Below are positions 15,673 to 62,855 of a stretch of DNA of 64,000 bases, in pieces; within the stretch, counting starts at the first letter, position 1, and each line of letters begins with the position of its first letter. The translations under genes and the position numbers were made by a program. Source of the stretch: Crossaster papposus (lineage: Eukaryota > Echinodermata > Asteroidea > Velatida > Solasteridae). The DNA lies in NCBI GenBank assembly GCA_037893245.1, contig JBAIAA010000697.1, positions 186,001-250,000 on the forward strand, given 5' to 3'. The notes beneath the pieces are model-generated. The model saw nothing but the letters and a program-made list of their open reading frames with translations. It made no database searches and was not told the DNA's origin.

Positions 15673-15773
15673 GTAGATGATATATAAATCCTATATCACT
15701 AAACATTTATGTACTTTTACAAGTTTTGCCAAACATTAACGCAACTCTTGCCGGTTAAATACTTTATTTACAG

Positions 15774-25674: not shown

Positions 25675-27569
25675 TTGGGCCGGCACGGGACCGATCCCAA
25701 TATACGTACCGAGCCAGAATCATTACTCAAATGGATCATTAATGACAAACTATATTGACCGTGTTGCAAGTTGGTCCAGTACAGGAAATCAGAAGTGGGC
25801 CTATACAACTACATGTACTGGGCAGATATCGGACCAATATCTCAATGTTTGCTGGGTAGGGTTTTCCCACATTCAGCTTTTATATGAGTACAATCTGTTT
25901 GTTGGTGCTTGTAAGTTATAGTCGTGTAGATGATCTATTTATAACGTCAGTTTAAAGAGCATTGCTTGTCAAATGCGACAGCAGTAAGAAATCCAAAAAT
26001 AGAAATTCAAAGATGACGTCACCGTGATGTCGAGTTTTGCCTATAGTAACATATTTTATAGGTTTGTGGAAATATCTATGTACCGACAAAACCTGTTACG
26101 ACTAGATATTTGGGTTCAGCATAATTTGTCATTATGACAAATTTATTAAATCTGTATAAAATCACGAGAGAACGTCATCATGACGTCATCGTGGCGTCAC
26201 CTGAATTGTCATCTATAACGTACATTTCCCTGGGCGCAACTAACCAGGCGGAAAAGACGAAAAAATAAATGTGTTTGTCGGGAACTATTACAGCTAGCAA
26301 ATTATTTGTGCAAAATAATTGATGTCGGTGAACCTTTCTTGTAGAACAGCAGAACGACGTAAATTGTCTTCATGTTTGCCTTTACTCACCCGCCCCCAAT
26401 ACATGTAATAATATAATATTTTAACTTTGGAGGAAGTAATGAAAAAACACGTGAAAATATATACATTGGCTTCCACAATACACACTGGATTTAGTAAGTC
26501 ATTGTTACACCCGTGAACTCGTCACGGCTTACTGCACACTTTTAACAAACACCTGCAAGGGAAGCAATTGCAAACAAATAAACTTTCCAAAGTCCTCTAT
26601 GAGGTATTTTTGTCTTCTGGCCGCACCAAAGCCCGAGAGTGATGATTATTGATTGGCATTAATTGATACAGGCGCATACGGCCACACAGATCTGCCATTC
26701 TCGAACGTCAGCATTTTCTTATCAGCTTCCCGCCATTTTCTTTTTACTTGCCACGCCTAGTCATTGCAACTTTTTTAGGTGCTGCGTCATACGTGCATGG
26801 CCCATGTGTACCGTGGTACAGATGGCTGACGAGTGTACGTCTGGTTTGGTGTCGTGTACGTTTACTTATTTTGTGACGGCGATCACGGGGTTAATAGAGG
26901 CAAACAAATGTCATCGAACAATGTAGGCCCTACTGGAATCGAAAGGCTGGAACTCATTATAGTTGCGCTTTGTGGAGAATCGATTCTAGCTTAGATTTAG
27001 GCTGATAAGTATCGAGGGTATTTTGTTTTTATCATTCTAATACGTCGTACACACGTTACCATGACCGCGACTATTGGCCAATTTCCCGTACTCTATTTCG
27101 ATATACTGACTTGATTTATCAAGGTGTTATATATCTTTTTGTATGAAGTTTCACAGTTTTAACACAGAGACTAGTGCATATTTACAACTTTGTCGATCAC
27201 TTTCTGTTGAGTAGTATTAACACCACAATTGACCTTTTTCTGGTATTTAAAATGCTTTTTAAACGGTGACGTACGTGCAACTATAGCTATCTATGTGATC
27301 GCTTGGAGTTTATAGCATAAAACCTATCGACGATATTTCAAAGAAACCAAAATAAAAATGTCTTGTCAAAATTTGTATCTCTTTAAAGTTCTGCTTATTC
27401 CATCTGTTTTCTCTGTCATTTCGTTTCGTTTCGTTTATTAAATCTCACCGCTCAGTTTAAAAGTCAGAAATCTTCTTTGCTCATCCAAATATAATGCATG
27501 CGTGAAATACGGACTATTCATCAAAACCTGGGACAATTTAGCCCAGTGGCGTAACCAAGGGAGACCTGG
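25675..27569. other. Intergenic, with a third partial copy of the 5' flank
   Basis: No gene is seen. Bases 26,289-27,110 repeat parts of 930-1,035 and 4,354-5,790, and 27,128-27,545 repeat 21,950-22,390. These show that flank material was copied more than once. CRE-like TGACGTCA words occur at about 26,013 and 26,182. Confidence 0.6.
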
Positions 27570-30266
27570 GAGGCACGCGAAATGCGCTACGGTGATTGGT
27601 CGCTGGGCACTGCTGATTATCTATGCAGTTACCGGGCAGAAGCTACGCGCGCCATTGAGTATTTATAGGACGACTAGACTCGAACACGAGTCGGTGTATA
27701 CGAATACACATAGGCCTACCCTGTTTCATCACAATAAGCTGCGACCTGACTAGGAACAAACATAATATTTCCGCTAGCAACTTCAACTGTGCACATTAAT
27801 TGATGTCGAAGAACCTTTACAACAGAACGACGTAAATTGTCTTAATGTTTGCCTTTTACTCACCCGCCCCCAATACATGTAATAATATAATATTTTAACT
27901 ATGAAGGGAGTAATGGAAATACACGTGAAAATATACATTGGTTTTCACAATACACACTGGATTTAGTAAGTCATTGTTACACCCGTGAACTCGTCACGGC
28001 TTACTGCACACTTTTTAACAAACACCTGCCGTGGAAGCAATTGCAAATAAATAAACTTTCCAAAGTCCTCTATGAGCTATTTTTGTCTTCTGGCCGCACC
28101 AAAGCCCGAGAGTGATGATTATTGATTGGCATTAATTGATACAGGCGCATACGACCACACAGATCTGCCACGAATGTCAACATTTTCTTATCAGCTTCCC
28201 TCCCGCCAAAACAAGGCAAGCTTGCTAAACGTAAGGGCGACTTGAACATGTTTATCGGGAAGTACAAAGGTACAAAATGTTGTACAAAGGTATACCATTT
28301 TGATGTGATGACGTGTTCTCAGCCGATAGCTTTCACTTTGGTTGGGAATCAGCGCCATATTCTACCAGTTGTCTTTGCATTGTTTTAATGCAAACACGTG
28401 ACATACAAGACTTGATATCTATTGCCGATACGGAGGTTGCGATAAAGGTGAGATTGGGTTCATAATTATTGTAAGGCAAACGCATTCTTGTAGGTTTTGG
28501 TGATATTAAGTTTTACTTGCCACGCCTAGTCATTGGAACTTTTGTTCCATTGGAAGTGCGCAGTCACTGCCAATGCTGCGTCGTACGTACATGGCCAACG
28601 TGTACCGTGGTACAGATGGCTGAGTGCACACAAACACGTCTGGTTTGGTGTAGTATACGTTTGCCTATTTTGTGACGGCGATCCGTACAGACAAGGGTTG
28701 ATAGAGGCAACAATATTCTCATCGAACAATGTACTGGAATCGAAAGGCTGGAACTCATTAGAGTTGCGCTCCGCGGAGAATCGATTTAGCTTAGATTTCG
28801 GCTAATCAGTATCGAGGGTCGATATTAGGTTGAAATCATTTTAGTCGCACACGTTACCACCGCGACTAAGCCAATTTCTCGTACTCTATTTCGATACTTG
28901 ATTTCGATACTTGATTTCGATACTTGATTTATCAAGGTGAAATTAATCTTGACCCACCATATTGCACTTAAAACAGTGTTGCTAATTTCTCGGCATTATC
29001 TTGTTTTTCTCATATTTTAGGTAGAACATCTGTCATCAGTTACATTTAGTCGTCATGTTTTCCAATTAATTAGGCAGATCACAGCATTTTATAAAGTTCT
29101 TCCAATGCCTTTAATATTAGGCTCATATTGTTCAGCTTGATAAAAGAAACAAAGAACTGAAAACCAAATTGAAATCCGACATTCAGTTCTCTTTTTATGC
29201 CAAAAATATTTTGCCGTTTAAAGCACCGTTTTAACCATTTCATTTTGGGCAAAAAGTGGAAAATACACTTTTTTCAATTTTTTCTTATAGTTTTCATTGT
29301 TTTTTCTTAATTTTAAAACCTGTTCGTGTTTCTTTTCTTATAGTACACAAGTCAAACCTACTTGCAAAAGAGAAATGGGGGTTCAATCACATTTCGTGTT
29401 TTTTCGGAAGGGGGGGGGGGGGGGGCCAAAGAAGTGCGCCACCAACGTTAAAATGTATCTCATTTATTCTTCCACGCTCACGAGCCGCACATCTCACACA
29501 GTAAATACGTATAGATCGCTACTCGAAGCGCACCATTGAAACACGTACAAATTTGCACTCGATGAGCTCCGTGCATCGCTCTTCGAATTCAGTGATTTAT
29601 CCAACGTCCGCAAAGCCAGACTCGTACAGTACAGGCATGGCGTAAACTTTCGCGTTTAAGAATTTGCAGAATTTTTTTTTTTTTTAAAAGGTCAAATATG
29701 TAGAGGATGTACCGAGGGATTTTTATTTAACTTTCAGGAATGAAAGATCTATTCCTAATTATTACGTTAGTGGAAACAAATCAGAGGATGAACGATAATT
29801 TTTGTTCACATTATGTCGATATTTGTAGCCATTTTAGGGTAGACGTTTTGTAACGAAATTCCCACCTGCTGGACCCATTCATACACGTTAGCTGCTGCAA
29901 TAAACCAACGGAAAATTGTCGGTAATATTTTGACGCATTTTATTTAAAACTAAGCACCTCAACAATTGAAAATACTCTTTCAATATAAACTATTATGTTT
30001 TCAGTGCTGTTAAAGAGAGAATTTTAACAGTATACATGCATTTTTTTGTTATGTTTAATGGTCCTCACTTTTTTTTAAAATGGAGTGTACCCAAACTGCG
30101 ATCGCAAATGATTGCGCAACACCCCTCCCCCACCCTTGTATTCGACCGTGTCACTCGGTCGCCGACGGTTGTACGTGTGGAATATGCATGGTCGGCTGAC
30201 ATGTTTTTCGTGCAGAGTGATCTGCCTACTTTAATACAAATGTATTGAAAACCTGGGGTTGAAACA
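27570..30266. other. 5' flank of the duplicated segment, copy B
   Basis: Collinear with about 100-7,296 of copy A but lacking its insertions: no 647-bp element at 27,737, no 3.3-kb element at 27,876, no TMCGYA element at 28,853. It has its own extra block (about 29,060-30,235) with a poly-G tract at 29,410-29,425 and no recognisable gene. Confidence 0.65.
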
Positions 30267-30868
30267 AAGAAAAGTATTGCCGACGAATCTTTACAGAATG
30301 TCACATATGCCCGCCGTTTCTTTTGAATTTAAATGTAGAGATTATCTTATTGGCTGATCATTTAACATCAACATGATCAATGCAAACCTGCTTCTATAGG
30401 GATGATTGTCACTTTTGAAACTGGATCTACGACCATTGAAATAACAATATTTCAACAATCGAGGTGTCAGTCAAACACAATTATGCACTGGGTTATTTAC
30501 TTCGGTTAATCCATACCCTTTCGGGCCGTTTATTATTGGCTCATTTTTAAGTGTCTCGAGATACCTTTTGTGATGAGTTTACATGTATACAGTATATACC
30601 TATAACGTTGGGCTGTCAATATTTATCATGAAATAGCTAGATCACAAATTACAATAAAACCAACAATTAAATCAACAAATAAATCATGCATCAAAATAGC
30701 TCTTTCATTGGTCTCCTTAAGAATATAATGTCTAGAGAAAACCAGATGGTATTGGGATTAATTGTTGAAATGCACGTGCAACTTTGTCATGATAATGCAC
30801 TGCGAGCGGCCTATGAGTTTATGATCTGTCCGTAAAGTATAACCTAAAATGTTACGGTTACTCAAAGC

Positions 30869-30878
30869 GAATATAAAC
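30869..30878 (+). promoter_or_regulatory. Possible TATA-like box, NLR gene copy B
   Basis: GAATATAAAC, 171 bp upstream of the ATG at 31,049, in the same context as in copy A. Weak evidence by itself. Confidence 0.3.
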
Positions 30879-31048
30879 ACACATTTCACCATTAGGCCAC
30901 TAGCAGAGAATGTTGATGCTTGGCCAATTTTACCACACACTTTATGGATGGTACTGTCTTATGCTTCGCTAAGAAATGGCACATTATCTTAATTAATCCG
31001 TTCAGGCTCCTCGGTGTACTGCAGTACTTGGACCTGATTACTACCAAG

Positions 31049-31284
31049 ATGCCGAAAAAGACTGTCCAGCAGTTAGATGCCTACATTAAGGCTACAGCCG
31101 TCGTGTACGACCACTCCAACACCAAACTCATCAACAGGAAGACTAAAGTCAAACCAAGCAAGAAACAGGCTTTCCTGTCTGTACTGCATTACAGGAAATT
31201 GACTAATGATGATAGCTGTGCAGAGAGACAACCATCGAAACGATGGATTCGAAGACAATCGAGTTGCAAGCCTGAAAGTCGAAG
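31049..31284 (+). CDS. NLR copy B, exon 1 (basic N-terminus)
   Basis: ATG at 31,049 in the context ACCAAGATGCC. It encodes 78 codons that differ from copy A at two residues (KLTND versus KSTYD) and end in phase 2 at GAAG|GTAAAA. No known domain. Confidence 0.6.
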
Positions 31285-34200
31285 GTAAAACAATTGTAAC
31301 TCAATTTCGAAGAATGTTTTCAATCTTTGACACTTTCATGACACCCATATTAATGTGGCAGCTGGACGTACGTTACTTTGAGAACCTAATCAAAATTAAC
31401 TCTTCTATAATTGTAGAATAATGCGTTTCTAAAACTACACAGGATTGTCCCTCATTTTCATAGTGATACCAAAGACGTAAAGCAGACACTGCAGGTATTT
31501 GTCCAGACTCCTCTCTCACATACAGCCAAGACACTTTGTTTCCAACTTCATCCCGAGACCACAGTCTCATTCCTAAAAGAAGAAATAGCCAAGAAGATTG
31601 GTGTCGAGGCACGATATCAGCAATTGTACACCAAGAGAGACATCCAGGTAGATATATAATTTATAAACCGGACACTTCGTTGTATTTAAAATATCAAAAC
31701 TTAGATTTGTTTATCGTGGGAGTTACAAATGTTGATGTAAAATGCAAAAGCTCAAATGTTCATGTTTGATTAATAATCTGTCGGTGTTTATGAAACTCCC
31801 ACACACACAATAACGCTCAATTAATCCCCCACCTAAAGGGTTAAACGAATTGACTTCTCTAGATGTTTCAATTAACGATGCACAACTAAAACCCAACACG
31901 TTTCTTAATTTAGTCTCTAACATTATTCACTTTGTCAGCTCTGTGACTTGCTCACACTCGAGGAGAATGGTGTCAGCAAGGATGAAGTCATCTCACTCCG
32001 TCTATCATCAGATGACCAGAATAAAGATAATTTACCAACAGGTAAATGACAAACTTTGGGAATAGAATGTTTCCAAAGTGAATAAACTACCTGCATGTAA
32101 TATTTTCTGACTGATAAGTATCCAATTCAGAACAAGAGTATATTGTTGGTGTAGGTGTAAGATATATCTTTATCGCTACGTTGGTAACCTATACAACACT
32201 GGACACTTTTAAAAATGTTTCACTAAAGTCACACATTATTTTGGGCAGACAAAGTAAACCTTGATGAAAAGTACCTTAAGGACTTGTCCTCGAATATTGA
32301 ATCATCGTGGAAGGAATTGGCCAAACACCTAGGGTACGAAGAAGCTGAAATTGCAGACATCCAAACCACCAACGAAGGCAGCACTGAAGCGAGCCGTCAC
32401 ATGCTACTCACTTGGTGGGAAAAGACGACAGATCGCGACGAAGCAGCTCAGAAGCTGAGACGAGCATTGGAGGCCATCGGGTTGACTAAATTGGCTCAAG
32501 ATATACCAGGTGAGTAGAAGTAGACAAATTAGAGAGTATATTTTTGGCGTAGGTGTGAGAGATATCTTAATTGCTACGTTGGTCACCTATACAACACCGG
32601 ACACCTTTGAGAATGTTTCAATGAAGTCACACATTTTTTTTGCAGACAAAGTCAAGCTTGATGAAAAGTACCTTAAGGACTTGTCCTCGAATATTGAATC
32701 ATCGTGGAAGGAATTGGCCAAACACGTAGGATACGGAGAAGCAGAAATTGCAGACATCCAAACCACCAACGAAGGCAGCACTTGGTGGGAAAAGACGACA
32801 GATCGCGACGAAGCAGCTCAGAAGCTGAGACGAGCATTGGAGGCCATCGGGTTGACGGAATTGGCTCAAGATGTACCAGGTGAGCTAGCAGTAGAGACTA
32901 AATTTAAAACAGACTCCGTAATTTCAAGATTCATTATTATGCAAAAGACTTGAATACTCATTTAACCACAACCAAAACTTTACAAAACATAGTTTACTTG
33001 TATTTTAAACAACAGGAATGTAATTAGTTTTCAAAACTAATTTAAACAGTAAAATGACATTTGTTGTTATTGCCTCAGTAACGAGCAAATCAAGAGACGA
33101 AGCAGCTGGACCCGAGCCAGAAAGGCGTCAAGATGCAGGAGAAAAAGAGGAGAGCAAACAAAACGAAAATAATCCACTGAAAAAGGACGTCTGTGATCAA
33201 GAAAAACCTGTTATCTGGTAAAACATGATTAAACGCTGCAATTTATAATGCACATTGTGTTTGAATAATTTAACTACATGTAGTAGCCGAAAAGCTAAAT
33301 AAGATTTGGTTTTGTAGATCATGCATAGACTGCCTTAAAAAAATCTAGTAAAACGGTGTATACAAAATGTTTACAATGGTGGTCTTCATTCCTTTATATT
33401 ACAAGAGCTCTAACATAAACAACCTACTCTGACAGTTTCAGATACGTGACCCAGAAGCTGCAGGTCTTTGTCCGATGTCACCTCTCACACAAACCACAGA
33501 CTCTCTGTCTCCAACTGGATCCAGAGACATCTGTCTCGACTTTAAAGGAGATAATACATGAGAAACTTGAAGTCCAGCCTCAAAATCAGCGACTGTACAT
33601 CCGGAGGAACTTTCGTAACTTTGAGGTAAAGATGGCTCCTCATATTTCATGTATAACTATAGGTACCAATTGACATGTCAAATTAAAAGCAATCCCAATT
33701 AATAAATACAACCTACAAAATTACCTTATCTTTTTAATTTTGCCAGCTATGTAACTTGCTGACACTTAACGACTGTGGAATTCATCAGGATGAGAACATC
33801 TCACTCCGTCTGTCTACTGATGGCCTACTGGGCGGTGGACCAAAAGGTGAATGCTAACAAGAAACATTATATACTATTTCAAGTTGGGACTAACCCTGCG
33901 ATCTTAGTCTGACAAATTAACTTCGAATCCGCAATTGAATCAGAAGGACATTAGATATAAACATATCGTGTGTTTTTTCTTCAACCAAACACTAATGTCT
34001 AACATGCATTCGTTATTTGCCCCTCAATCTGAAAAGGCAGTACCCATAACATTATGCTGACAAAAAAGCTGTATTTTTTTTTCTTTCTAGACAAACACCC
34101 TGTTGATGATCAATTATTTCGGGACTTGGCTTTGAAAACTGAGTCATACTGGGAAAACCTGGCCACATCTTTGGGAAATGAAGAAGCAGTTATCAAACAG

Positions 34201-37200
34201 ATCCAAACCACCTCCCAGGAGAACAAAGAAAGGAGCCTGCAGATGCTAAACTGTTGGTGGAGTAAGCAAACAAATCAAGAGGAAGGATTTCAGAGATTGC
34301 GAGATGCATTAAATGCAGTCGGGCACGCTGAGCTGGCCTTAACGGTGTCGTCATATGAGCAAAAGTGGAAAGAACAGAAGGAACATGATCATCGACACCA
34401 ACCTCAACCGTCAGTACAAGTTGCAGGACATAAAGAACAGAGAAGGCATAAAGGGGATACGCCATCTAATGAACAAAAACCGAGACGGGTGGATGGTGAT
34501 CGAGAACAATCACATCCAAGTGTACATGTGGAAGCTTCTCAAGAACAGAGACAGCAGAAAGGGACTACATCAGCGGTACAAGTGGGAGGTACTCAAGCAC
34601 AGATCAATCAAAAAGGGGCTACGTCATCCAAGGAACAGAGACCGACAAAGGAGGAAGTTAGTGGCCGACATACATCTCACCCAGAGGTTCAAGAAGTAAG
34701 AGCTAAAGAACAGAAACAGCAGAAAGATGTTACCTCACCAGAGGATCAGGCGTCGAAACAGGAGATTTTCGCGCATCGAGACAAACCTCAACCAGAGGTA
34801 CAAGATGTAGGAACTGAAGAACAGAGAGAGCAGATGGTAAGTATATCACCAGAGGGAAACATACCAGCTCAGGAAGAAGTTGCCCGTCAAGAAAAACGTA
34901 AAACAGAGGAACGAGTGGTTAAAGAACGGAGCAAACAAAGAGATGCAACATCATCTGATGACCAGATACCGGAACAGAAGGAAGTTACTCATCAAGACAT
35001 CCGCCAACTATCGGTACAAGTTGGAAGACCTCAAGAAAAGAGCACACAGAAAGGGACTGAGTCATCTGAGAAACAGATACCGAAACCAGAGAACGTCGGG
35101 CATCCAGATAATCCTGAATTACCCGTACAAATGAGAGTGACTGAGACAGAAAACAAACCAGGTAAATAATTACACAGAATAAAAAATGCAGTTCTTTCTT
35201 CAAGCTCTTGAATAGTTACGTAAGAGACGTTCAGCACCAATACATAATTGTTCACAATGGGTGAGAATAGCACAAAGACACCAGACCATTTTGTGATATA
35301 GCAACAGTGTCTTTAATCTGGAGAATTCAAAGTTAAAACGTACCAAGCATTTGAAACAAGTCAGTGTACCAGATGTTATATAAATTTAACACGCAAAACG
35401 CTTATTCGGTCACTTTCTTTTTAAATCTCCCTATATTTTTTTCGCACATGTTCCTTTTTTTTTTACCACAGCGTTGGGGGCGAGTTTCTATTCTGAATAT
35501 TATTATTATTATTATTATTTCAACAACAGGTACAACAGGTACACACATACATGAACAACATACAATTATAAATTACACTAAAATTAAAACAAAACAAAGA
35601 CAACACTATCTAAGTTGGCTAGGACCGACAAAAGTATAAGAAAACACTTTGACTCAAAAGCCTGCCTATCCTAACTTGAAAAAATGACACACGGAATACA
35701 ATTTAATGTATTTAAAAATAAATGTATAAATAACTATAATTATGATGAATTTAGCTCAACAGAAAAACATTTAAAAAAATAAAAAAATATTCACATTATT
35801 CATATTAACAGAAATAGTATTATGGAGCAATCATTTAAAAGCAGGACATTAAACAAGGGATACTGTCCCACAATCACATGTAATGTCAAAGTCCTTTACT
35901 TTTCATCCAAAAAGGCTGCAAACACACTGATGCACTGAAAGAGATTGGATCTTCTGAGGAGCAGAGACATAGGCAGCAAGGGAAGGAGAGAACGGATCAA
36001 AACATTCAAACGAAGGAGACGATGCAATCATCAGAAGGTCTTGGATTGAAGGGGTCCACACACCAGAAACCAGGCCACGGGCAAGTGGGTGCTACACCAA
36101 GCAATCCTACAGAGATACAAGAAAGAAAAAAAGGGACTTCATCTTCTGAGGAGCAGAGACAAAGGCAGCAAGGGGAAGAGGGAACGGATCCAAACATTCA
36201 AACAAAGGAGACGATGCAATCATCAGAAGGTCCTCGATTGCCAACGCACCAGAAACCAGGCCACGGGCAAGTGGGTGCTACAGGGAGCAATCCTTCAGAG
36301 ATACAAGAGACAGTGGTAAGAGATGTGGCATCACAAGACCAACGTCTAATGCCGGGTCCAAGCTCAGTTCAAGACATCGTACCTGCTGGTAGACACCAAC
36401 TGGAAACATCTCCCCTATCACCTGCTGTACTCGCACGTAGACCTGTGCAACACATTTCAGTGGATTCCTTGAATATACGTGGCGAGAAATGTCCTGTCTT
36501 TCTTGGGCCGGTTAACCAACCGACTATCAACATAAACGTGACAGGAAATAGTTCAGGTAAGACATTTTCCTTAACTTTTTGACTTTCTATAATTTGGTCT
36601 TAATTTTTTGTAAATCTTTTAGTTCTCGCCTGTAAAAGTGCTATACAAAATTTGCAAATATAAAAAACAAAACTACCAAAGTATTATGACACACATTGCA
36701 TCACGCACACCAAAAACTGCTGCATTAGAATGAAACTGAATCTGAATCTATACCTGCTCTACCCTTTCCAGATAAAACATGACACTTTTCTCGGATAAGT
36801 GCAGGAAATTTGCCCTCAGATAACACAAATGCGGATAAATTTGGAACCAACTATATTTTGTCTTATTTATCCATCCTATAAATATTAGAAAATGTGACAA
36901 CAGGTTAGGCGAGCCATGGTGTTTTTATTCCCCCATGGGCGATTATGCATGTTGCGTCATGTAATTATGCACGCAAAGTCACACGCGCATGCAAATGCAT
37001 CACAATTCTGCTCGGAATTTTCCAAGTGATTAGAAAAGATACAAGACGATCTTATCAAAGGTCATGTCGCATACGTTAGAGGACGCCCGCATCGGCAGCC
37101 TACGCGCGCTGCATACCGCGCGCGATTACACGCATGAATGCACACTGTACGCTGTGTACTGCGGGGTATCCAAGTCTACGGCCAGACAAAAGAGGATGAG

Positions 37201-40200
37201 TCATCCTTTTGCTACGTTAACATTATGTTCCCGGCGGCCACGGCAGCCCCGAAACGTAGCGCGCCGTGTGATTTTGGAATTTTTTTCTGCAAGTTTTGTT
37301 ACGGCCTATTACGTACTGTCCCGTTTGGTTGCGTTCACCCCGTTTTACTACGGCCTACTAGGTTTCTCATCCGAACCGTGACTGCCGTGGCAGATTGTTT
37401 GGCAGTTTAAAAATCTTGCCCGGCATCCACGGCAATCACGGCCTGTCACGTTTGCCCATTCCGTCCCCCGGCGTTGTCTCACGTCCATCCCGTTTTGTCC
37501 ACGGTGGCCTGAAACGTGATTGCCGTGGCCGCCGGGAACATAATGTAAACGTAGCATTTGTTGAATGTTTATTGCCCAGCAGTTCACTCCAGTATAGACG
37601 ATGTGCCCTCACTGCAGGATTAATTTAAATTGAAATGTGTATCGGGAGCCAAAAGTGCCAAGCGTCCCACGGTACTGTGAAACAGTTCACCTGCTTCCTT
37701 TTCGAGCGGGAGCCGATAACAGATGGCATGCTCAGATTATCGAAAGGCCCAGACTGCAAATAAAACTTAGCTGAGTCGCTGCCTGGTATGGTTAGTGCGA
37801 TATAGTTTCATGAGGTGACAGATGGAACGTTCTATTCCACGAGGCGAAGCAGAGTGGAACGGAACATAATCTGTCAACTCATGAAATTATTCTTACCATC
37901 GCACGAACGTGAAACATTCACTATTTGTTTTATACAACGCCTGAATAAATCCTCGCCATCTGATTGGTCAGACAGTGCGCGACCGTGCATTGCATCATCA
38001 GTTGGAGCGATGCCAAACGATTGTAACATAAATGCACAAGATATACCACATTATTGCATCATCAGTTGGAGGGATACCAAACATGGCCAATCTTAAACTT
38101 TCAGGCAATGTGGGCTTGGGTGGTAAAGCAGGAACGTTGGCGGCTAGTTTGCAGACGGTGACTCACCTGAAATCACTCGATTTATCTACATGTGACATAA
38201 ATAAACAAGATATACCACACATTGCTAAGATAAATACACGTATATATCAAATAGCTGTTTAATGTACAAATCTGATTCCATGTTTTACCTTTCGATTGCT
38301 ATTTTATAGCTTCTTTCTATGTTACAATTTGATGAATTTGGTAAACTAACGAACCCTTTACTCGTATACAAAATTTCCACATAGTCGTTACAAATATATA
38401 ACTGCGCACTTGAACAATATATAATTTCGTGAATCAAGTAATTTGGTATATCAAAAGTATTCACTTAAATATTTCTGCATCTTTATAATTAATGCTTTAA
38501 TACATTCTGATAACACAATTGAATCGTGTTTTTTGTATTCATTGAGGTTGTCTCAATAGAATGAAACTATTTATAATATTTAATTTGAAGGATTCCGGTT
38601 CGGGTTATAGTAGAGCATTGATAGCATTATGTACAAATAAAACCATCGTTTCTAATAGAAGTATTGTCACCTTAATTGCTGGCAACTCGACTCGACGTTC
38701 CAACTCAACTTGCTGCTGATAAGTGTGAGCTAAAATTAAAAAACCCGATTAACACGATTTAATTTCGATTTGTCCTTTTGTTACATTAGAAACGAGTCCG
38801 TCGAGTGGGAGGGGACCAGGATGCAGTACGACACAGGAGACTCGACTCGGTGACCCAACTCGACTTGCTGCTGATAAGTGCGAGGAAGCATTAAAATACA
38901 TCTACACCAGCACAGGTAGCTATGTGCAGATGCTTCCATGGGTGGATGATGACCAAAAACACATCATGGAAATCTACACAAAGCTACAATTAGAAAAAGG
39001 TGATAGGGATTTGAAGGGAGAAGTGAAATTGTATTGCGATATTTTCAAACTCGAAACAAGAGAGGGCCATCCAATTATACGGGCAATTTTAAGCGGAGGG
39101 CCTGGTCTAGGGAAAACGACTCTTATTGCCAAAATGGGTTACGATTGGGCCTGTGGCACTGTTGATGCACTGAAAAAATACAAGCATGTTTTTGTGTTGA
39201 AAATGCGTTCCCTAAAACAAACGTCGGATGTGATAGATGCACTGTTTGATCAGTTGTTAGATGAAAAGACCATAAACAGGAAAGACTTGGAATCCTTCAT
39301 TGCAGCCAACCCTAACGACGTGTTGTTTCTGTTGGATGGTTTTGATGAATTCGGGTCAACTGAGCTTGATGAGTCGGAGTTCGGTTCGATCCTCAAAATG
39401 CTTAATCGAAATGGAAAGTACGCAAAATGCAATGTACTAGTGACAACCCGCCCCTCACACTATGACAAGCTGGTAAAGAAAACTTTGATTCAGAGGCCGT
39501 TTGCTCGTGTCAATGTTTTAGGGTTTAGCAAGAATGATGGTAAGAAATATGTGCACAAGTTTTATTCAGGAGAATCATCCAAAGCTGATGGACTTTTTGA
39601 GAGAATTGTATCCTCGGATGTTTTATTAGATTTGGCCAAAAGTCCCATGCTGTTGTTATTGGTGTGCTTGTTAGGGGAAGATAATTCTACATTCCCTGAC
39701 ACCATGTTTCGACTTTATAATGAGGCACTGCTTTACATATTTAAACGTAAATCAAACGAAATGTCAGAAGAAGAGATTTCAAGGCTAGTTACTGCTATTG
39801 GAAAGGTTGCTTTGCGTGGTCTACTTTCTTCTGATCAAAAGTTATCATTCCGAGAGGGGGATTTTGAGACAGATGACCTTAAAAGGGCCTTACGAGCTGG
39901 CATCCTCACCAGCGAGCGAGTCCGGAAGGGGATCGACACTTCCGAACCCGTTTATTTCATTCACAAGACGTTTCAAGAATTTTCCGCTGCGATATACTAC
40001 CAGAGTTTAACATCGGAAGTAGAAACGCATGAATTTGAAACGTTCTTTCATGAAGTGTCTGATTTAGCTGGGTTTGAATATCTTCTGCGTTTTTGTTGCG
40101 GTGACAGTGAGGGGCCACGGACAAATTCAATTTTACAGATTTTATCGCATAAAGTCAAAGATGCAGGCAATCTAGATGACAAAGCCATACAAGTAGCCTT

Positions 40201-41500
40201 GCATTGTTACTTTGAAAGTCAGAGCCAGACATTGCGACCGTTGGAGTTAATTAATTCCGTTATTGATTCAAATATATATATTGGTGTTCCAGGGAGTGAT
40301 ATATTGACATCGTTTATGTACTTCCTAAACAACGTTACTGATGACCAGAAAAAGGGTGGCGGAAATACTTGCCTCGAAAGGATACATACATTAACAATGG
40401 ATCCTCGCAGCATTCGACAGTTGGGTACAAAATACGTGAATTATGTGAACAGAATGCCAAATCTTCAAAGAATTGAAGTACATGTTCATAAAGTCGAGGG
40501 AATGGGCGGAACAATTTTGGGGGACAATACACGTTTCTTTTTGTCTCTACGTCTGAAAGAAATGACGCGGCTTCGGGTCGTGACCTTCAATGATTGCAAA
40601 CTAACAAGCAGTTGCATGGAGCACATTGCTGGGCAACTGAGTAATCTTCCCAACCTTGTTGAATTGAATCTGTCTCGCAATAAGACCCTAGGTGGATCAG
40701 GTCGGTCATGGTCTCACTTGAAGGAAATCAAAACGCTCAACAAACTAAACTTGCGTCACAGCGTATTGAAAAGTAATGACTTGGAGCACATTGCCGTGGC
40801 GCTGGGTAATCTGCCCAACCTTGTTGAATTGGATCTGTCTGAAAATGAGACCCTTGCTGGATCAAGTCGGTCATGGTCTTACTTGAAGGAAATCAAAAGC
40901 CTCAACAAACTAGACTTGCGTCTGTGCGCATTGAAAAGTGATGACTTGAATCACATTGCCGTGGAGCTGAGTAATCTGCCCAACCTTGTTGAATTGAATC
41001 TGTCTGACAATAGGAACCTTGTTGGATCAGGTCGGTCATGGTCTCACTTGAAGGAAATCAAAACGCTCAACAAACTAAACTTGCGTTCGTGCAGATTTAA
41101 AAGTGATGACTTGAAGCACATTGCCGTGGCGCTGGGTAATCTGCCCAACCTTGTTGAATTGAATCTGTCTTGGAATGACACCCTTGGTGGATCAGGTCAG
41201 CCATGGTCTCACTTGAAGGAAATCAAAAGCCTCAACAAACTAGTCTTGGCTAGATGCACATTGAGGAGTGACGACTTGGAGCACATTGCCGAGGCGCTGA
41301 ATAATCTGCCCAACCTTGTTGAATTGAATCTGTCTTTCAATAAGAGCCTTGCTGGGTTATCAGGTCGGTCATGGTCTGTCCTGGCAAAAATGAACCACCT
41401 CGTAAAGCTTTCTTTGGGGTTCTGTGATTTGACCGTTGACGATCGGGCAGAAATCACCAAAGCAGTGAGTCAAATGACCAGCCTGGAAGTGGTATATTAG
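31049..41500 (+). CDS. UBL-Death-NACHT-LRR NLR gene, copy B (intact frame)
   Basis: Predicted exons: 31049-31284, 31464-31647, 31939-32041, 32249-32509, 32646-32879, 33079-33217, 33436-33625, 33747-33846, 34091-35161, 35915-36556, 38790-41500. They sum to 5,871 nt, 1,956 codons plus stop, with GT/AG sites and matching phases at all ten junctions. Domain order: basic N-terminus; UBL 1; Death 1-2; charged linker; UBL 2; Death 3; Gln/Lys/Glu repeats; linker ending in a conserved motif; NACHT (Walker A near residue 1,155, Walker B near 1,235); ten LRRs. No TRADD-N exon is present. By family it should be a cytosolic NLR that oligomerises through NACHT and signals through Death domains. The ligand is unknown. 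It lies 22,968 bp downstream of its twin and is the copy more likely to be functional. Confidence 0.82.
31464..32041 (+). CDS. NLR copy B, exons 2-3: ubiquitin-like domain 1
   Basis: Exons 31,464-31,647 and 31,939-32,041 around a phase-0 intron. The protein is as in copy A with small changes (QTLQVFVQTPLSHTAKTLCF; EEIAKKIGV). The differences are conservative, which suggests coding constraint. Confidence 0.7.
32249..32509 (+). CDS. NLR copy B, exon 4: Death domain 1
   Basis: An 87-codon phase 1-1 Death exon (DKVNLDEKYLKDLSS..., SSWKELAKHLGYEEAEIADI, HMLLTWWEKT, IGLTKLAQDIPG). It uses the same acceptor and donor as in copy A. Confidence 0.85.
32646..32879 (+). CDS. NLR copy B, exon 5: Death domain 2 with a 9-residue deletion
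   Basis: The exon is 234 nt, 27 nt shorter than every other Death exon here. EASRHMLLT is missing, so the sequence reads NEGSTWWEKTTD. That removes most of helix 5 before its Trp pair and probably weakens or abolishes the Death fold, although the frame is preserved. The next intron matches that after Death 3 of copy A. Confidence 0.8.
33079..33217 (+). CDS. NLR copy B, exon 6: charged linker
   Basis: A 139-nt exon, phase 1 in and phase 2 out, that keeps the acidic, Gln-rich character of copy A's exon 7. Confidence 0.7.
33436..33846 (+). CDS. NLR copy B, exons 7-8: ubiquitin-like domain 2
   Basis: Exons 33,436-33,625 and 33,747-33,846. Key segments are KLQVFVRCHLSHKPQTLCLQ, STLKEIIHEKLEV, NQRLYIRRNF, LCNLLTLNDCG and ISLRLSTD. 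The intron lies at the same position in the fold as in UBL 1. The phase 1 exit leads into the third Death domain. Confidence 0.7.
34091..35161 (+). CDS. NLR copy B, exon 9: Death domain 3 and Gln/Lys/Glu repeats
   Basis: Opens DKHPVDDQLFRDLALKTESY after 'ctttctag', then WENLATSLGNEEAVIKQIQ, LNCWWSKQT and LRDALNAVGHAELALTV: a Death domain in frame, unlike copy A. About 250 residues of imperfect 36-39-residue repeats follow, rich in Q, K, E, T and S and probably disordered. One and a half repeats present in A are missing (junction GTTSAVQVGGTQAQ), and GRHTSH is gained. Confidence 0.8.
35915..36556 (+). CDS. NLR copy B, exon 10: low-complexity linker with conserved C-terminal motif
   Basis: A phase 1-1 exon of 642 nt. 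It carries two copies of a module of about 56 codons (SSEEQRQRQQ, NIQTKETMQSSEG, QKPGHGQVGAT) where copy A has one. It ends SLNIRGEKCPVFLGPVNQP and TININV, like A, then GNSSG. Its phase 1 exit splices in frame to the NACHT exon. Confidence 0.65.
37211..37555. mobile_element. 345-bp GC-rich MITE-like element
   Basis: The ends are GCTACGTTAACATTATGTTC, continuing CCGGCGGCCACGGCA, and its near-perfect complement at 37,521-37,555. The interior is GC-rich with repeated CACGGC and CGTTTT words. No reading frame is convincing, and flanking TTT/ATT gives no sure target duplication. Confidence 0.65.
37795..37904. repeat. 110-bp foldback (hairpin) sequence
   Basis: The inner arms TTTCATGAGGTGACAGAT...TTCCAC (37,806-37,840) pair with GTGGAAC...ATCTGTCAACTCATGAAA (37,855-37,886) around a 14-nt loop. 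The outer GTGCGAT and ATCGCAC also pair. Probably a tiny MITE; a small-RNA precursor is less likely. Confidence 0.6.
38000..38230 (+). pseudogene. Decayed LRR fragment of another NLR-type gene
   Basis: The frame PNMANLKLSGNVGLGGKAGT ... VTHLKSLDLSTCDINKQDIP HIAK is a clear pair of LRRs of the ribonuclease-inhibitor style. The preceding stretch (CNINAQDIPH) is an earlier repeat in a shifted frame. The consensus differs from both local genes (GLGGKAGTLAASL instead of LGGSGRSWSHL), so it comes from a different NLR lineage. It reaches a stop at 38,260. Confidence 0.6.
38790..41500 (+). CDS. NLR copy B, exon 11: NACHT-LRR
   Basis: Entered in phase 1 at 'acattag|AA'. Walker A GGPGLGKTTL (about 39,095), Walker B FLLDGFDEF (about 39,335; canonical DGxDE), LVTTRPSH, PMLLLLVCLL and FIHKTFQEFSAAIYY. 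Five 55-residue LRR modules (NLPNLVELNLS.N, LKEIK.LNKLNLR, SDDLEHIA) end in a variant module and SQMTSLEVVY. The single large exon for NACHT through LRR is open to the TAG at 41,498. The unit is two LRR modules shorter than in copy A. Confidence 0.9.
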
Positions 41501-41788
41501 TCTCATCCATAATGGGCTCTGTACATGCAGCATTTTGAAAGTGCTTGGATCGTGCGCGTTTGCGTGTACACAACTTCACTGCGGGATGGCGTTATACAAT
41601 ATTTTACTGACTTGGTATATCGGCAGCTAATGCCAGAAATGACTTCCCCAAGATAATTGATCATGAAAGTCTCTTTTCATAGTTATATTCAGTACACAGA
41701 CGCGGTCTCAGAGAACAAAGGACTAGAACAACTTTGTGATAGTTTGTGATGAAACAACCGTTAAAACCCAACAATTGCCAACTGTTCA

Positions 41789-41802
41789 AATAAATAAATA
41801 AA
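41789..41802 (+). promoter_or_regulatory. Polyadenylation signals of NLR copy B
   Basis: Overlapping AATAAA hexamers in 'caaataaataaataaaat', about 290 bp past the stop, as in copy A. Confidence 0.5.
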
Positions 41803-44800
41803 ATACGGTTTCAGTTTTGTTCACCACCACTAACTTTTTCTCCGTCAACTTTTGGCCGCTCGTTAAACGACAAGTTCTTTATTACGTCACGCGGATCGCT
41901 TTTCACGGAGCAATTCTCTGGTAAGTTAAACATGCATATTTTGTCTCCCTTTATCCGCAAACAAACTTAGTGATTTACATACAATGTCAAGTAAGTAGAC
42001 CCTTGAATAAATAGGAATAACATGCGTTTCAAGAAACCACATATTTTAAAATAGTTAGGAAAAACCTAGAATTCCGATCCCTGCCGCACAATCAAAAGTA
42101 CAGGTTTAAAACCTGAGCTTATTACGGCCAAAACGTTCGATCTTCATTGTGATTTCTGACCAGAGAAGTGAGTTGTGTGGGTCTGAAGGGGCAGGGAACG
42201 AGAGCTGCGTTGTTGAAAAAAACAAGTATGTCTGGCACAGATCTGACAAGATTATTGAGAAATAAACCGAGACAAGATGACGTCATGGTTGGTTTACACT
42301 CGAAATATTCTGGTAACTTTTGACTTGCAAAAACAGTCCCCAAGCGTACCCTAGCTGAATTCGGCTTTTGGAAGATATACATCACACAAGCTAATAAACC
42401 ACAGCCGACGTAAGCTTGGCATAAATACAGAGTCGATTAAAAATTGCCAAACCTAAGAACCCTTGTTATACTTCTGATATCACCCGAGATAACAATCCTG
42501 CTGGAATTCCCGCTAAGAATTGGATGACCCTCTTGTAAAATTGTAAATAAATACTGTGCTGTTGTCGATTTGTATTCTGTATGTGCTTTGTGTTTATCGA
42601 TGCGTGCATCGAACCAGTAACAGTGTCATGCATGATGCAAAATGTGTGTAATGTAAAAGTTATGTATAAAATAAGACATTGTACATTAATGAGATTTTAT
42701 TTGTGATTAATTGAACATCAGATGTTCCACTGTCAAGAAAGTTTTAAAGTGATGTTTACTTCAACATTTAATGTTCACCTGAGAGTGAAGCCAAGTGGTT
42801 TCATCTCGAGGCTTTATAGACTGGTGCATGTCCATCTGTTTGGAACTAGACTGGTCTCTTTTCAGTAGTCTGATGACAGACTAGGGAGAGATTTTGACAC
42901 AGTTGACTCAGTACTAAAGGCGTATTGGACTGGTTGTTTCATATGCCAGTCTATTTTCTTGTTTTGCATGTTTTCAGTACCGTAAGTTTTTGGATTCTCA
43001 TACACAGTATCGAGAGTTCAACATTTCTGGACCAATGTTAACCTTTGACACCCTGGGTATGGCACGCAAAGTATGCAAAGGAATTCATTTTCAATGAAGA
43101 ACAACTTGGGTGAACTTATTACGTACTTAATTGAATGAAGTTTAAAACAATGGGTTCTGTTGTTGATGAAAGCATAATATCTTAGAAATTATCACGACTA
43201 CAGTTTTAAATGATGCATCCATTTTGGTAAACAGTTTATTGTGAAACATTGATTACAAAACAATGGGAACAATTTCTGGTTTAAATTATATTAAAGGTAG
43301 GATAGGCCTACACCATTTGCAGATATCGAAAATGTTTACTACCAAAATGATTAAGAAATATCTTACTTATTTAAAAGTGAATAATGCCTGTAGGCATCCA
43401 GCAAAATGAATGCGCGACTATTCTGTAATTGTTCCGAAGAACAACTAAAACCACTGCCAGACGCCGGTTGAAAACGAACGCCGTTCTTGCTTTTTTTCTC
43501 GGCATCCATGATTGTAAAACTTCGGACAGGTCAGTTAATCAATATTTACTATAAAATACAACCCCAAATCCACCCATTCATGATAGTTCAAGTAATTACC
43601 AATGATGTATCCTACCTATAATGAAGCTTGGCTTTTCGTAAGAGTGTTATCAAATCTAAGATACAAATGTATATATCTGAACCGTTATGCCGATTTTTAT
43701 ATAGGCCTAACAAATTATCCGTTTTACAGTTTTAACAGATATTTACAATTGTGTTGATCGCTACTCTCTAAGTACATGTAATAATAACACCACAAATGAC
43801 GTTATTTACTACAGTTTGTAAAACTTGTTACTAAGCAATGGAGAAATTGGCTGCCTTAAATTTTCTTAATTAAGCGTTTTGTATGGTATGGCACGCAAAG
43901 TATGCAAAGGTATGAATTTTGCAATGAAGAACAACATATCTTATAATATCTTATAAATTATCACGACTACAGTTTTAAATGATGCATCCCATTATGGTAA
44001 TCAGTTTATTGTGAAACATGATATTATATTAAAGGGAGGATACATCATTTGCAGATATCGAATTTGTTTACTATACTGAATTATTAAGAAATATCCTACT
44101 TATTTGAAAGTAAATAATGATTAACAGATATTTTATTTTTTGTTGATCGCTACTCTCTAAGTACATGTAATAATAACATCACCAATGACGTTATTTGCTG
44201 GTTAAAATGCTTTTTTTATAAATTAACGATTATAGTTTAAAAACAATATAGTTTGTCATGTAAAATTAGTTATTCAACAATGGAGAAATTGACTGGCTTA
44301 AATTATCTTAATTAAGCCTTTTATTATAGTGTTATCACACTAAAGGTACAAACATAAATATCTAGAGCGTTTAAATGTCGGTTTTACATACAACAGTTAT
44401 ATATCTTTTTGTATGAAGTTTTACAGTTTTAACACAGAGACTAGTGCATATTTACAACTTTGTCGATCACTCTCTGTTGAGTAATATTAACACCACAAAT
44501 GACGTTTATTTTCTGGTATTTAAAATGCTTTTTAAACGGTGACGTAAGTGCAACTGTAGTTATCTATGTGATCGCTTGGAGTTTATAGCATAAATTCTAT
44601 CGAAGATATTTCAAAGAAACCAAAATAACAATGTCTTGTCAAAATTTTTGTTCATTCCATTGGTTTTCTCTGTCATTTCGTTCCGTTTCTTTTCGTTTAT
44701 TTAATCTCACCGTTCAGTTTAAAAGTTAACAATCTTCCTTGCTCATCAAAATAGAATACATGCGTGAAATACGGACTATTCATCAATACCTGGGACAATT

Positions 44801-44813
44801 TAGCCTTCTAACG

Positions 44814-44867
44814 CAGTGGCGTAGACAGGGGTGCATGGCCTGGGGCACCCCCCCCCCCCCCCCCCCC
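44814..44867. repeat. CAGTGGCGTA-type end plus poly-C tract (second copy)
   Basis: The same unit as at 22,379, with about 20 C. Its presence at the same place in both flanks shows it predates the segmental duplication. Confidence 0.4.
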
Positions 44868-46493
44868 AACAGACTCCCAGTTTCCCTAGGTGCCCCCCAC
44901 AACAAACGTGACCTCCCCGTTTTCTTCCAAAACCAAACAGAGACTCAACAGACCATATAACCTAGTGCTATGTGCATTTTCTAAAGTTTAAATGGAATAA
45001 ACATCATTTCGCTTGCTGTAATTGTCCGAAATGGATGGATTGGGGGCGGGGAGTATGTTATAGCAAATATTGTTACACTGACTTTCTTTGGACGTTTTGG
45101 GTTCGTAGATGCTGGACAAAAATCAACAAAAACCAATCATGTTCTTGTAGTCAGGTACCCTGACCCAACGATGAAACGGATCAATTTGTAGACGTTGGGG
45201 GGAATTGTAAGGTCTGAAAATCAGTTGTACATCTTCACAGGTGTGTAATCAATTGCAAAGAAAATATGGAATAACTAGATATGAACAATTAGAAGCAGTA
45301 TTTGAACAAGTCATTTTTTTGTCCCAACGCTGGTCGGCCAACAAGCGTTGGAAATCGATACACAAATACCACTCTACCAGGAGCCATGATTTTACAGGAT
45401 GCTTCAGACTGCCATTACCTAACAGTCCAGAGTAAAGTGTTTTGTGATCATTTAATAATTTATTTTGTTTGATGCTTGCAAATGTTGCATATTCCCTTTA
45501 AGGTTATAGTCTACCATTTGTCAGTTGTGAATTTTTAGACAACCGTATAAAACCGTGTCAGCAGGAGTTCTTTAAATCATACAAAATTGTACTTAACAAC
45601 TAACCAGTCAACGTTTTAGCTCTGTGAATGCTTTAAACTTTGAGAAAATATGATATTCAAAGATTGCGATTTTAAACATAATTATCATGTTATTGACGTC
45701 AAGATGACGTCATCTAGTATCAGATTACAAGCGACCAAATAGTTTTAGATTTCCAATCAAAGTCCGAAAGTGATGATTATTGATTGGCATTAATTGATAC
45801 AGGCGCATACGGCCACACAGATCTGCCATTCTCGAATGTCAACTTTTCCTTATCAGCTTCCCGCCAAAACAAGGCAAGCTTGCTAAACGCAAGGGCGACT
45901 TGGATATGTTTATCAGGAAGTACAAGGTCCAACATTTTGATCCGATGACGTGATCTCAGCCGATAGCTTACATTTTGGTTGGAAATCAGCGCCATATTTC
46001 TATCAGTTGGTCTTTGCATTGTTTCAAATCACACTCGTGACATACAAGACTCGATATCTATTGCCGATACGGAGGTTGAGATATAAAGGTGAGATTGGGT
46101 TCATAATTATTGTAAGACAAACGCATTCTTGTAGGTTTTGGTGATACTAAATGTTACTTGCGTTAGAAATTATTACAAAAATACAACTCTACTTGAAAAT
46201 CATGATTTTACAGAATGCTTCAGACTGCCATTACCTAACAGTTCAGAGTAAAGTGTTTTGTGATCATTTAGTAATTTATTTGTATGATGTTTGCAAATGT
46301 TGTATATTCCATATGTTGGTTATAGTCTACCATTGGTCAGTTGTGCATTTTTATCGTATAAAACCGTGACGGCAGAATTCTCATATTCTAAGGAATTGTA
46401 CTTAACATCTAACCAGTCAAAGTTTTAGCTCTGTGAATGCGTTAAACTTAAAATATGATATTCAAAGATTGCGATTTTAAACATATTATGTTA

Positions 46494-46515
46494 TTGACGT
46501 CACGATGACGTCATC
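46494..46515. promoter_or_regulatory. Paired CRE-type palindromes, conserved in each array unit
   Basis: TTGACGTCACGATGACGTCATC holds two overlapping-spaced TGACGTCA sites, the full ATF/CREB palindrome. It recurs at about 45,695 (one change), 49,064, 53,178, 54,370 (degenerate) and 58,459. Retention in all units could be simple descent; function is unproven. Confidence 0.45.
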
Positions 46516-47740
46516 TAGTATCAGATTACAAGCGACAATATAGTTTCAGATTTCCAACCAAAGCCCGAGAGTGATAATTATTGGCATAATTTGATACAGG
46601 CTCATACGGCCGCACAGTTCTGCCAACATTTTCCTATAGCTTCCCGCCAAAACAAGGCAAGCTTGCTGAACGCAAAGGCGACTTGATTATGTCTATCCAA
46701 GTGCTAAAGTACAACATTTTGATCTGATAACGTGGTCTGAGCGCAGCCGATAGCTTAAATTTTGGTTCGAAAGCGGCGGCATAGGATATTTTTACCAATA
46801 TATCTTTGCATTGTTTTAATGCACACTCGTGACATACAAGACTCGATTTCTATTGCCGATACGGAGGTTGAGATAAAGGTGAGATTGGGTTCATGATTAT
46901 TGTAAGACAAACGCATTCTTGTAGGTTTTGGTGATACTAAATGTTACTTTCCACGCCTAGTCATTGGAACTGTTGTTCCCAATGGAATTAAGTGCTGCGT
47001 CATATACGTGCACACAAACACGTCTGGTTTGGTGTAATGTACGTTTGTTTATTTTGTGACGGCGATCACGGGATTGATAGAGGCAACACTAATTCGTCGA
47101 ACAATGCACTGGAATCGAAAAGCTGGAACTCATTATAGTTGCGCTCTGTACGTGGAGAATCGATTCTAGCGTAGATTTAGGCTGAGCAAGTATCGAGGGT
47201 ATTTTTGGTTAAATCATTTTAGTCGTACACACGTTACCACCGCGACTATTAGCCAATTTCCTGTACTATATTTCAATACTTGATTTATTAGGGTAAAGTT
47301 CAGACCCACATTGCACTTTAAAAAAAATAGCTTTGCGAATTTGCAACAACTATTGTCTGCTCGATGCTACGCAATGTTTGTTTACTGCCGGTCAAAATAC
47401 CTGATGATATTGACGTCTTTAACGGTTTGTTAGTTGCAATTCGATGCACCATCATTACAAATTATTGAAAATTTGCTACAAAATGTACGTTAGTGCTGCC
47501 GCCATTTTGTTTTGCCTGAGCTAGACAACTTCTCTTACGGCTACATGTTTGTGACGTTGTAGCCGTAGCTGTAGCTGTAGACGGCATTTTGCATATGGTG
47601 CATTTGGGGGGAATAATTTGGACGGTCGTGCTGAGTAGTAATACTGGTCACTACACGTACTACACGGTTGGTAACCTGACTGTTAGGTATTAATGCTGGG
47701 CGTTCAACGCTTACCATCGAATAGTCTGTGACCCATTTTA

Positions 47741-47900
47741 ATTGTATACAGTCCCTAGTGGCGTACACACGACTTTTATACCTTTTTCTATTAACCAAAA
47801 TTATTGGTTTATTATGCACCTAAATAATTTCATTTAGATAGGGTCTTATAGAAAAAGGTATAAAAGTTGTGTATACGAACAACTAGGGACTGTATACAAT
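47741..47900. repeat. 160-bp palindromic unit (first of three)
   Basis: ATTGTATACAGTCCCTAGT (47,741-47,759) is exactly complementary to ACTAGGGACTGTATACAAT (47,882-47,900). The inner CGTACACACGACTTTTATAC and CTTTTTCTAT pair with ATAGAAAAAGGTATAAAAG. The same unit is at 50,299-50,459 and 51,257-51,418, with right-arm-only repeats at about 50,480-50,580 and 51,440-51,640. It looks like a MITE amplified within the array. Confidence 0.65.
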
Positions 47901-47945
47901 TAACTGGGGACTGTATCCATTTTATTTTTCCTCAAAAAAGTAACT

Positions 47946-48185
47946 TTTTAGTTTGTACACGGTTCTATGGAGTAGTGATTTTATTCCCGTGTAGGATTTG
48001 TGTAGTGGTTTTTTGTGCACGGGTCTATGGAGTAGTGAGTAGGAAATTCATTTTCCATCTAAACGGAACTTTAAAGTTTGTATACGGTTCTACAGAATAG
48101 TGATTTGATTTTATTCTCTTGTAAGAGTTGGGTATCATTGTTTTGTACACTGGTCTATGGAGTAGCGATTTTATTCCCTTGTAAG
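47946..48185. repeat. 126-bp minisatellite, block 1 (about two units)
   Basis: The unit core TTTGTACACGGTTCTATGGA continues GTAGTGATTTTATTCCCGTG, then a related half TTTTGTGCACGGGTCTATGG and AGTAGTGAGTAGG. The unit is thus itself two diverged halves. Confidence 0.7.
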
Positions 48186-50602: not shown

Positions 50603-50985
50603 CCTCAAAAAATAACTTTTTAGTTTGTACACGGTTCTATGGAGTAGTGATTTTATTCTCGTGTAGGATTTGGGTGGTGATTCTTTGTGCATGGTTCTAT
50701 GGAGTAGTGAGTAGGAATTTCATTTTCCCTCGAAAAATTACTTTTTAGTTTGTACACGGTTCTATGGAGTAGTGATTTTATTCCCGTGTAGGATTTGTGT
50801 AGTGATTTTTTTTGTGTACGGGTCTATGAAGTAGTGAGTGGGAATTTCATTTTCCCTCGAAAAATAACTTTTTAGTTTGTACACGGTTCTATGGAGTAGT
50901 GATTTTATTCTCTTGTAAGAGTTGGGTATCATTGTTTGTACACTGGTGTATGGAGTAGCGATTTTATTCCTTTGTAAGATGTCGG
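50603..50985. repeat. 126-bp minisatellite, block 2 (about three units)
   Basis: Same unit as block 1, starting at 'ctcaaaaaataactttttag'; successive cores are near 50,618, 50,744 and 50,868. Confidence 0.75.
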
Positions 50986-62844: not shown

Positions 62845-62855
62845 CAACCTAAAAC

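Follow-up and report, generated by a model that had tools for sequence, protein, structure and literature searches.

Death-NACHT genes are common in marine invertebrates, and Death-NACHT-LRR (leucine-rich repeat) or Death-NACHT receptors are described from sponges, echinoderms and amphioxus in the available excerpts of three reports (PMC12909245, PMC8913654, PMC2575513), among them 25 Death-NACHT-LRR genes of the sponge Dysidea avara (PMC12909245) and death-NACHT cDNAs of amphioxus (PMC2575513). In the excerpted text of the sponge report, the legend to Figure 2 includes UBQ, ubiquitin, among the domains of the NOD-like receptors (NLRs) of D. avara (PMC12909245), and an excerpt of a further report describes TRADD-N proteins of marine invertebrates with polyubiquitin and many other fusions (PMC8195603). 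Here, we analyze a candidate NLR gene of the sea star Crossaster papposus, located at positions 31,049–41,500 of a 64-kb window (the whole stretch of DNA analyzed, 64,000 nucleotides of contig JBAIAA010000697.1, to which all coordinates refer), in which exons for ubiquitin-like (UBL) and Death domains precede a NACHT-LRR exon. The Death-NACHT-LRR part of this arrangement is of a known kind, and the UBL-Death chain is the part that appears new. The chain is real and unusual, and probably belongs to one NLR.

Results

Eleven exons form one open frame for a UBL-Death-NACHT-LRR chain

Eleven exons, A–K, on the plus strand, which also carries all the other exons and gene remnants named below, can be spliced into one open frame of 1,956 amino acids plus a stop codon, with GT-AG borders in 10/10 introns and compatible phases at every junction. 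The predicted product contains, in this order, UBL, Death, Death, a linker, UBL, Death, repeats, a short beta-prone motif, NACHT and LRR, and both UBLs, all three Death domains, the NACHT domain and the LRR domain passed the Pfam cut-offs. The phase-matched chain of eleven exons proposed in an earlier sequence-only reading is thus borne out by splicing and Pfam, and the coordinates given there for UBL1 (31,464–32,041) and UBL2 (33,436–33,846) match the exon borders found.

Exon A (31,049–31,284; 78 amino acids), placed by splicing, begins with the putative start codon (ATG at 31,049) and contains no Pfam family above the cut-off, so that the start of the gene is uncertain. UBL1 is encoded by exons B (31,464–31,647) and C (31,939–32,041), separated by a phase-0 intron, and is followed by Death 1 (exon D, 32,249–32,509) and Death 2 (exon E, 32,646–32,879), both on symmetric 1-1 exons, and by a charged linker, identified from splicing (exon F, 33,079–33,217). 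UBL2 is encoded by exons G (33,436–33,625) and H (33,747–33,846), with an internal phase-0 intron positioned as in UBL1. Exon I (34,091–35,161) encodes Death 3 and then degenerate repeats, found by repeat analysis, whose units are mostly 36–37 amino acids long and rich in Q, K and E. Exon J (35,915–36,556) carries two copies of another repeat, spaced by 192 nt, and then the end segment CPVFLGPVNQPTININV (36,500–36,556), which lies directly before the phase-1 donor and is retained in a tandem copy of the gene described below. Exon K (38,790–41,500) encodes the NACHT domain and an LRR domain of 165-nt tandem units, detected with Tandem Repeats Finder, and ends with the stop codon TAG.

For the Death domains, the PF00531 scores were 49.9 bits (Death 1), 32.7 bits (Death 2, also supported by alignment) and 37.6 bits (Death 3), 3/3 above the cut-off of 22.6. 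The nearest relatives of the Death profile in the PDB were RIPK1 (E 1.5e-6), THOC1 (3.4e-6) and PIDD (5.1e-4). For exon K, the NACHT domain scored 88.6 bits for PF05729 (cut-off 26.7) and contains the P-loop GGPGLGKTT, and the LRR domain in the same exon scored 41.4 bits for LRR_4 (cut-off 27); the nearest PDB relatives of this NACHT-LRR body were NLRP3 (E 4.9e-26) and NLRC4 (9.8e-24). Exon K therefore has two of the features of an NLR, a NACHT domain with a P-loop and a C-terminal LRR domain in the same chain; the third, an N-terminal effector domain in the same protein, would be supplied through the predicted J-K splice. Searches that say nothing about animals gave, for exon K, 13 pattern matches in prokaryotic contigs, 0 confirmed, and no pattern match in viral contigs, and, for the Death alignment, 64 pattern matches in viral contigs, 0 confirmed.

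The UBL domains have lost the core of the Ile44 surface

Both UBLs exceeded the cut-off of the Pfam ubiquitin family (PF00240, 25.4 bits), with 30.0 bits for UBL1 and 33.6 bits for UBL2, and both matched ubiquitin in a phmmer search against the PDB, the single-ubiquitin rows being at about 1e-3 to 2e-2 and the far smaller E-values of polyubiquitin chains being sums over repeats. Exon G modeled alone gave the order strand-strand-helix-strand of the N-terminal part of a beta-grasp, with a mean predicted local distance difference test score (pLDDT) of 69.3; the fold comparison of this model, which covers one UBL exon only, was consistent with a beta-grasp and not significant.

In the HMMER alignments of both UBLs to ubiquitin, Tyr was observed at the position of Ile44, Ser at that of His68, and Arg at that of Val70. 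Changes at ubiquitin positions 44 and 70 take away the core of the surface to which UIM, UBA and proteasome receptors bind. The UBLs were therefore rejected as mimics of the Ile44 surface, where a bulky aromatic residue replaces Ile44 and Arg replaces Val70, and the loss of this core makes the recruitment of ubiquitin readers or proteasome factors through that surface, as distinct from other UBL surfaces, unlikely. A C-terminal GlyGly was found at neither UBL, the sequence continuing into SSDDQ and STDGL, respectively, and a conjugatable ubiquitin-like modifier was rejected on these grounds. These results suggest, as the most likely role of the UBLs within the arm, non-covalent protein docking or spacing rather than ubiquitin mimicry or conjugation as modifiers.

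Old UBL and Death duplicates are under purifying selection

The ratio of non-synonymous to synonymous substitution rates (dN/dS) was calculated from Nei-Gojobori counts with the Jukes-Cantor correction. The comparison of UBL1 with UBL2 gave a dS of 1.1 and a dN/dS of 0.33 in the copy of interest, and a dN/dS of 0.34 in the tandem copy; for Death 1 against Death 3, dN/dS was 0.42. These results indicate purifying selection on the old UBL1/UBL2 and Death 1/Death 3 duplicates, which have been kept as proteins. Between the tandem copies, which differ by few changes, dN/dS was 0.13 for exon A (Fisher p 0.02) and 0.48 for exon J.

Exon J is predicted to splice to exon K

The donor of exon J (phase 1) agrees with the consensus at 8/9 positions, and the phase-1 acceptor of exon K has 12/16 pyrimidines. 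The first Met of exon K in the copy of interest (SYVQM) already lies inside the pre-NACHT region; with no early Met, exon K must be preceded by another exon. When the sequence from J to K was scanned for ATG exons that are at least 31 nt long and whose phase-1 donor scores 7/9 or better, one 12-codon stretch with two overlapping starts was returned. Since the copy of interest showed no convincing competitor for the role of first exon, one gene comprising exons A–K is likelier than two, and we regard it as fairly probable. AATAAA/ATTAAA signals, of which 5 lie in the 2.2 kb after J and 6 in the 1 kb after K, were not decisive.

The J-K intron holds an LRR remnant of another NLR (38,053–38,259; tblastn, with LRR_6 below the cut-off) and, just upstream of exon K, a fragment of a NACHT-exon start (38,685–38,744), recognized as a direct repeat. 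In a GC-richer part of the same intron, a 36-nt inverted repeat (arms at 37,210–37,245 and 37,521–37,556, 97% complementary) encloses a segment (37,210–37,556) that is perhaps a small transposon.

A tandem copy carries an additional Death exon

A paralogue at 8,081–19,776, in which the order of all parts is kept, belongs to a discontinuous tandem duplication (about 88–23,168 versus 27,577–45,603). The duplication took in the block as a whole, so that finding the order twice is no independent proof that exons A–J and exon K are one gene. Three Death exons follow UBL1 in the tandem copy, whereas two follow it in the copy of interest. At 9,162–10,301 of the tandem copy, a 396-nt unit made up of the Death exon and its intron is repeated in tandem nearly three times, the units being 97% alike, which points to a recent change in the number of Death domains. 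The last two Death units of the tandem copy differ by 1.5%, whereas the closest units across the copies differ by 3.5–4.2%, which dates the third Death copy to after the gene duplication.

The sequence-only reading was accurate for the chain and its phases, and overlooked the tandem copy, the third Death exon after UBL1 in that copy, and the frameshifts in its Death 3 and LRR. It had also described the UBLs as fixed spacers between Death domains; UBL plus Death is indeed a duplicated module, but the number of Death exons after UBL1 is not fixed.

The tandem copy contains, in its J-K interval, a TRADD-N-like exon (15,265–15,672; phase 1-1), whose PF20694 score of 13.6 bits is below the cut-off of 23.7, and a truncated NACHT-exon start with an in-frame stop, NACHT' (15,774–16,078). 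The structural model of the TRADD-N-like exon was poor (mean pLDDT 59.9) and Foldseek was uninformative. No counterpart was found in the 31–41.5 kb region by tblastn with the exon of the tandem copy (E up to 10), and for this reason the copy of interest was rejected as a TRADD-N immune protein.

Exon I repeats contain VQVG-like elements

The pattern [VI]Q[VIL][GA] occurs in the exon I repeats 3 times in the copy of interest (34,414–35,025) and 4 times in the tandem copy (12,090–12,848), in the forms VQVG, VQLG and VQVA. In 2,000 composition shuffles, the mean for the copy of interest was 0.044 against the 3 observed, an excess that the shuffle overstates because the occurrences share descent by repeat duplication. 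The end segment CPVFLGPVNQPTININV resembles the short strand-rich stretches that precede NACHT in fish NLRs. The segment was rejected as a RIP homotypic interaction motif (RHIM), as it has neither the core of that motif nor a Pfam match at E up to 10.

Remainder of the window

At 45,345–58,878, several blocks of about 0.4–2 kb are repeated more than once, with relatives at 4,354–5,764 and 26,286–28,904; the open reading frames (ORFs) at 48,028–48,354 and 55,600–55,989 within this region matched no Pfam family. An ORF at 62,853–63,998, cut by the window end, has gag-type and aspartyl-protease Pfam matches below threshold and, by eye, zinc-knuckle-like cysteines, and is probably a long terminal repeat retrotransposon. 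A Pfam scan of 10/129 ORFs of at least 65 amino acids outside the main coding blocks gave no match at the cut-off; DUF4634, RRM_YTH1 and Peptidase_M48_N appeared below the cut-off, at E 0.02–0.1, in two ORFs other than 62,853–63,998. Scans of the window for tRNAs and Rfam families found nothing.

Discussion

With about even confidence, we propose that the locus encodes a Death-type NLR whose N-terminal signaling arm arose when a UBL-plus-Death module was duplicated and, later, single Death exons were duplicated in turn. In such a receptor, the LRR and NACHT domains would keep the protein off until a ligand triggers NACHT ring formation, by analogy with NLRP3 and NLRC4. Each subunit of the ring would contribute three Death domains, held by a long and flexible tether of repeats, and the clustered Death domains could act as a multivalent seed on which a Death adaptor or kinase, for example a RIPK1-, FADD- or PIDD-like partner, assembles into a helix, with the UBLs serving as docking or spacing domains within the arm.

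Several observations weigh against this proposal, and they bear on the alternatives to it. The ring and the Death assembly are modeled on known NLRs, and the J-K splice is the weakest link of the chain, as it is predicted from phase fit, splice-site quality and the absence of a convincing rival first exon. Exons A–J might instead be a gene of their own, for a UBL-Death adaptor whose last exon is J, with exon K a separate NACHT-LRR gene whose first exon is unrecognized or lost, a division that we consider conceivable but doubtful. If the J donor were unused, exon J would read into a stop 8 codons past it (the ORF ends at 36,582). The scan between J and K is blind to non-coding first exons and to weaker donors, and the accepted donors of exons F and G and the J donor of the tandem copy score just 6/9. 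The J-K intron has been remodeled, as seen from NACHT' and the TRADD-N-like exon of the tandem copy and from the LRR remnant of the copy of interest, and carries leftovers of at least one other NLR body; in what would be the simplest history, such a body already separated J from K when the duplication took place, and its decay then took a different course in each of the two copies. Exon K may in that case be a former neighbor that the UBL-Death exons captured, or a gene of its own to this day. In the tandem copy, exon K has ATG as its second codon, and the TRADD-N-like exon has its own ATG (15,231) with a matching 7/9 donor. Against two genes, the copy of interest offers no convincing alternative coding first exon between J and K, its exon K lacks an early Met, and its exon J retains the 8/9 phase-1 donor. 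Decay of the whole tandem NLR cluster, so that neither copy yields a working full-length receptor, is in our judgment unlikely. It would account for the two frame breaks of the tandem copy, one in the LRR and one where Death 3 begins, by which that copy is probably not intact unless the frameshifts are assembly errors, as well as for the debris in the J-K intron and for the deletion in Death 2, which is 9 residues shorter than Death 1 in the alignment. It would also fit the dN/dS values near 1 between the copies, 1.03 for NACHT and 0.96 for the pooled Death domains; the LRR gave 0.82 (308 codons compared), and the value of 0.37 for the pooled UBLs was not significant (p 0.064). The Death, NACHT and LRR values gave no sign of recent constraint, and relaxed or diversifying evolution would both fit them. 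Against decay, a dN/dS near 1 is common in recent NLR duplicates under diversifying selection as well, the frame of the copy of interest runs uninterrupted through 1,956 codons with every splice site retained, and the dN/dS values of exons A and J are under 0.5.

The remaining alternatives concern how the arm would signal. The sequence-only reading had suggested that the UBLs act in place of ubiquitin, so that proteasome factors or ubiquitin readers would join the Death complex. Both domains do belong to the Pfam ubiquitin family, and a Leu near position 8 may be kept, its position lying beside alignment gaps in both UBLs, a further point against our proposal. However, I44Y, H68S and V70R replace the core of the hydrophobic Ile44 patch in the two domains, and, with no GlyGly either, the residues lend no support to the recruitment, which we regard as very unlikely. 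Even less credible, and highly improbable, is that CPVFLGPVNQPTININV or the VQVG repeat elements act as a RHIM-like amyloid signaling motif. The end segment is N-rich, beta-prone by eye and adjoins NACHT, the pattern count in exon I is far above that of the shuffles, and the Death profile is nearest to RIPK1, which, in an excerpt of the source, also carries a RHIM (PMC9444067). Nevertheless, the RHIM core, given as G-(I,V)-Q-(I,V)-G in the excerpted source (PMC7885112), is absent from the end segment, 3/3 segments containing CPVFLGPVNQPTININV matched no Pfam family at E up to 10, and VQVG is altered to VHVE, VQEV or VQDV in other exon I units, its occurrences being related by duplication. Quite unlikely, finally, is a modular receptor in which one UBL-Death arm is combined with interchangeable NACHT-LRR bodies. 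Here, duplicating symmetric 1-1 exons would adjust how many Death domains the arm has, exon J could be joined through its phase-1 donor to any of several same-phase tandem bodies (K, NACHT'), and the UBLs would be structural partners in a mixed UBL/Death filament; no description of such a filament as an NLR signaling scaffold was found in the literature searched.

If exons A–K encode one protein, as we favor, it provides an example of a signaling arm that is enlarged by duplicating exons and in which Death domains stand together with ubiquitin-fold domains stripped of the core of ubiquitin's recognition surface. Whether the number of Death domains sets the activation threshold of an NLR would then become testable, as would the role of a UBL in a Death assembly without ubiquitin function. 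If there are two genes, what lies beside the NLRs would be an unusual adaptor, a UBL-Death protein with multiple Death domains.

The arrangement had been put forward as undescribed. No UBL-Death-NACHT-LRR protein, and no NLR with alternating UBL and Death domains, was found in the literature searched, which was seen in part and without the figures and supplements where architectures are usually given, so that one may be in print; a ubiquitin domain in sponge NLRs, on the other hand, has already been published (PMC12909245, from its excerpts). The bona fide NLRs of D. avara thus share a ubiquitin-family domain with the present gene; the legend gives neither order nor copy number, and the text parts examined mention no repeated UBL-Death module. 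The TRADD-N multidomain immune proteins, as far as the excerpt describes them, are alike in having Death-superfamily domains with fast-changing partners, and a TRADD-N-like exon is present in the tandem copy; they are unlike the copy of interest, where no TRADD-N exon was found. In the excerpts on them, the Death-NACHT(-LRR) receptors of sponges, echinoderms and amphioxus resemble the present gene in their N-terminal Death domain or domains and NACHT, the LRR being present in the sponge set, and their numbers are large and lineage-specific, with some of the genes clustered on chromosomes (Dysidea NLRX). Unlike in those receptors as excerpted, three Death domains are interspersed with two UBLs here, and NACHT is preceded by a long tether of repeats. 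NLRP3 and NLRC4 share the NACHT-LRR body with exon K, and carry one PYD or CARD where the gene of interest has the UBL-Death chain.

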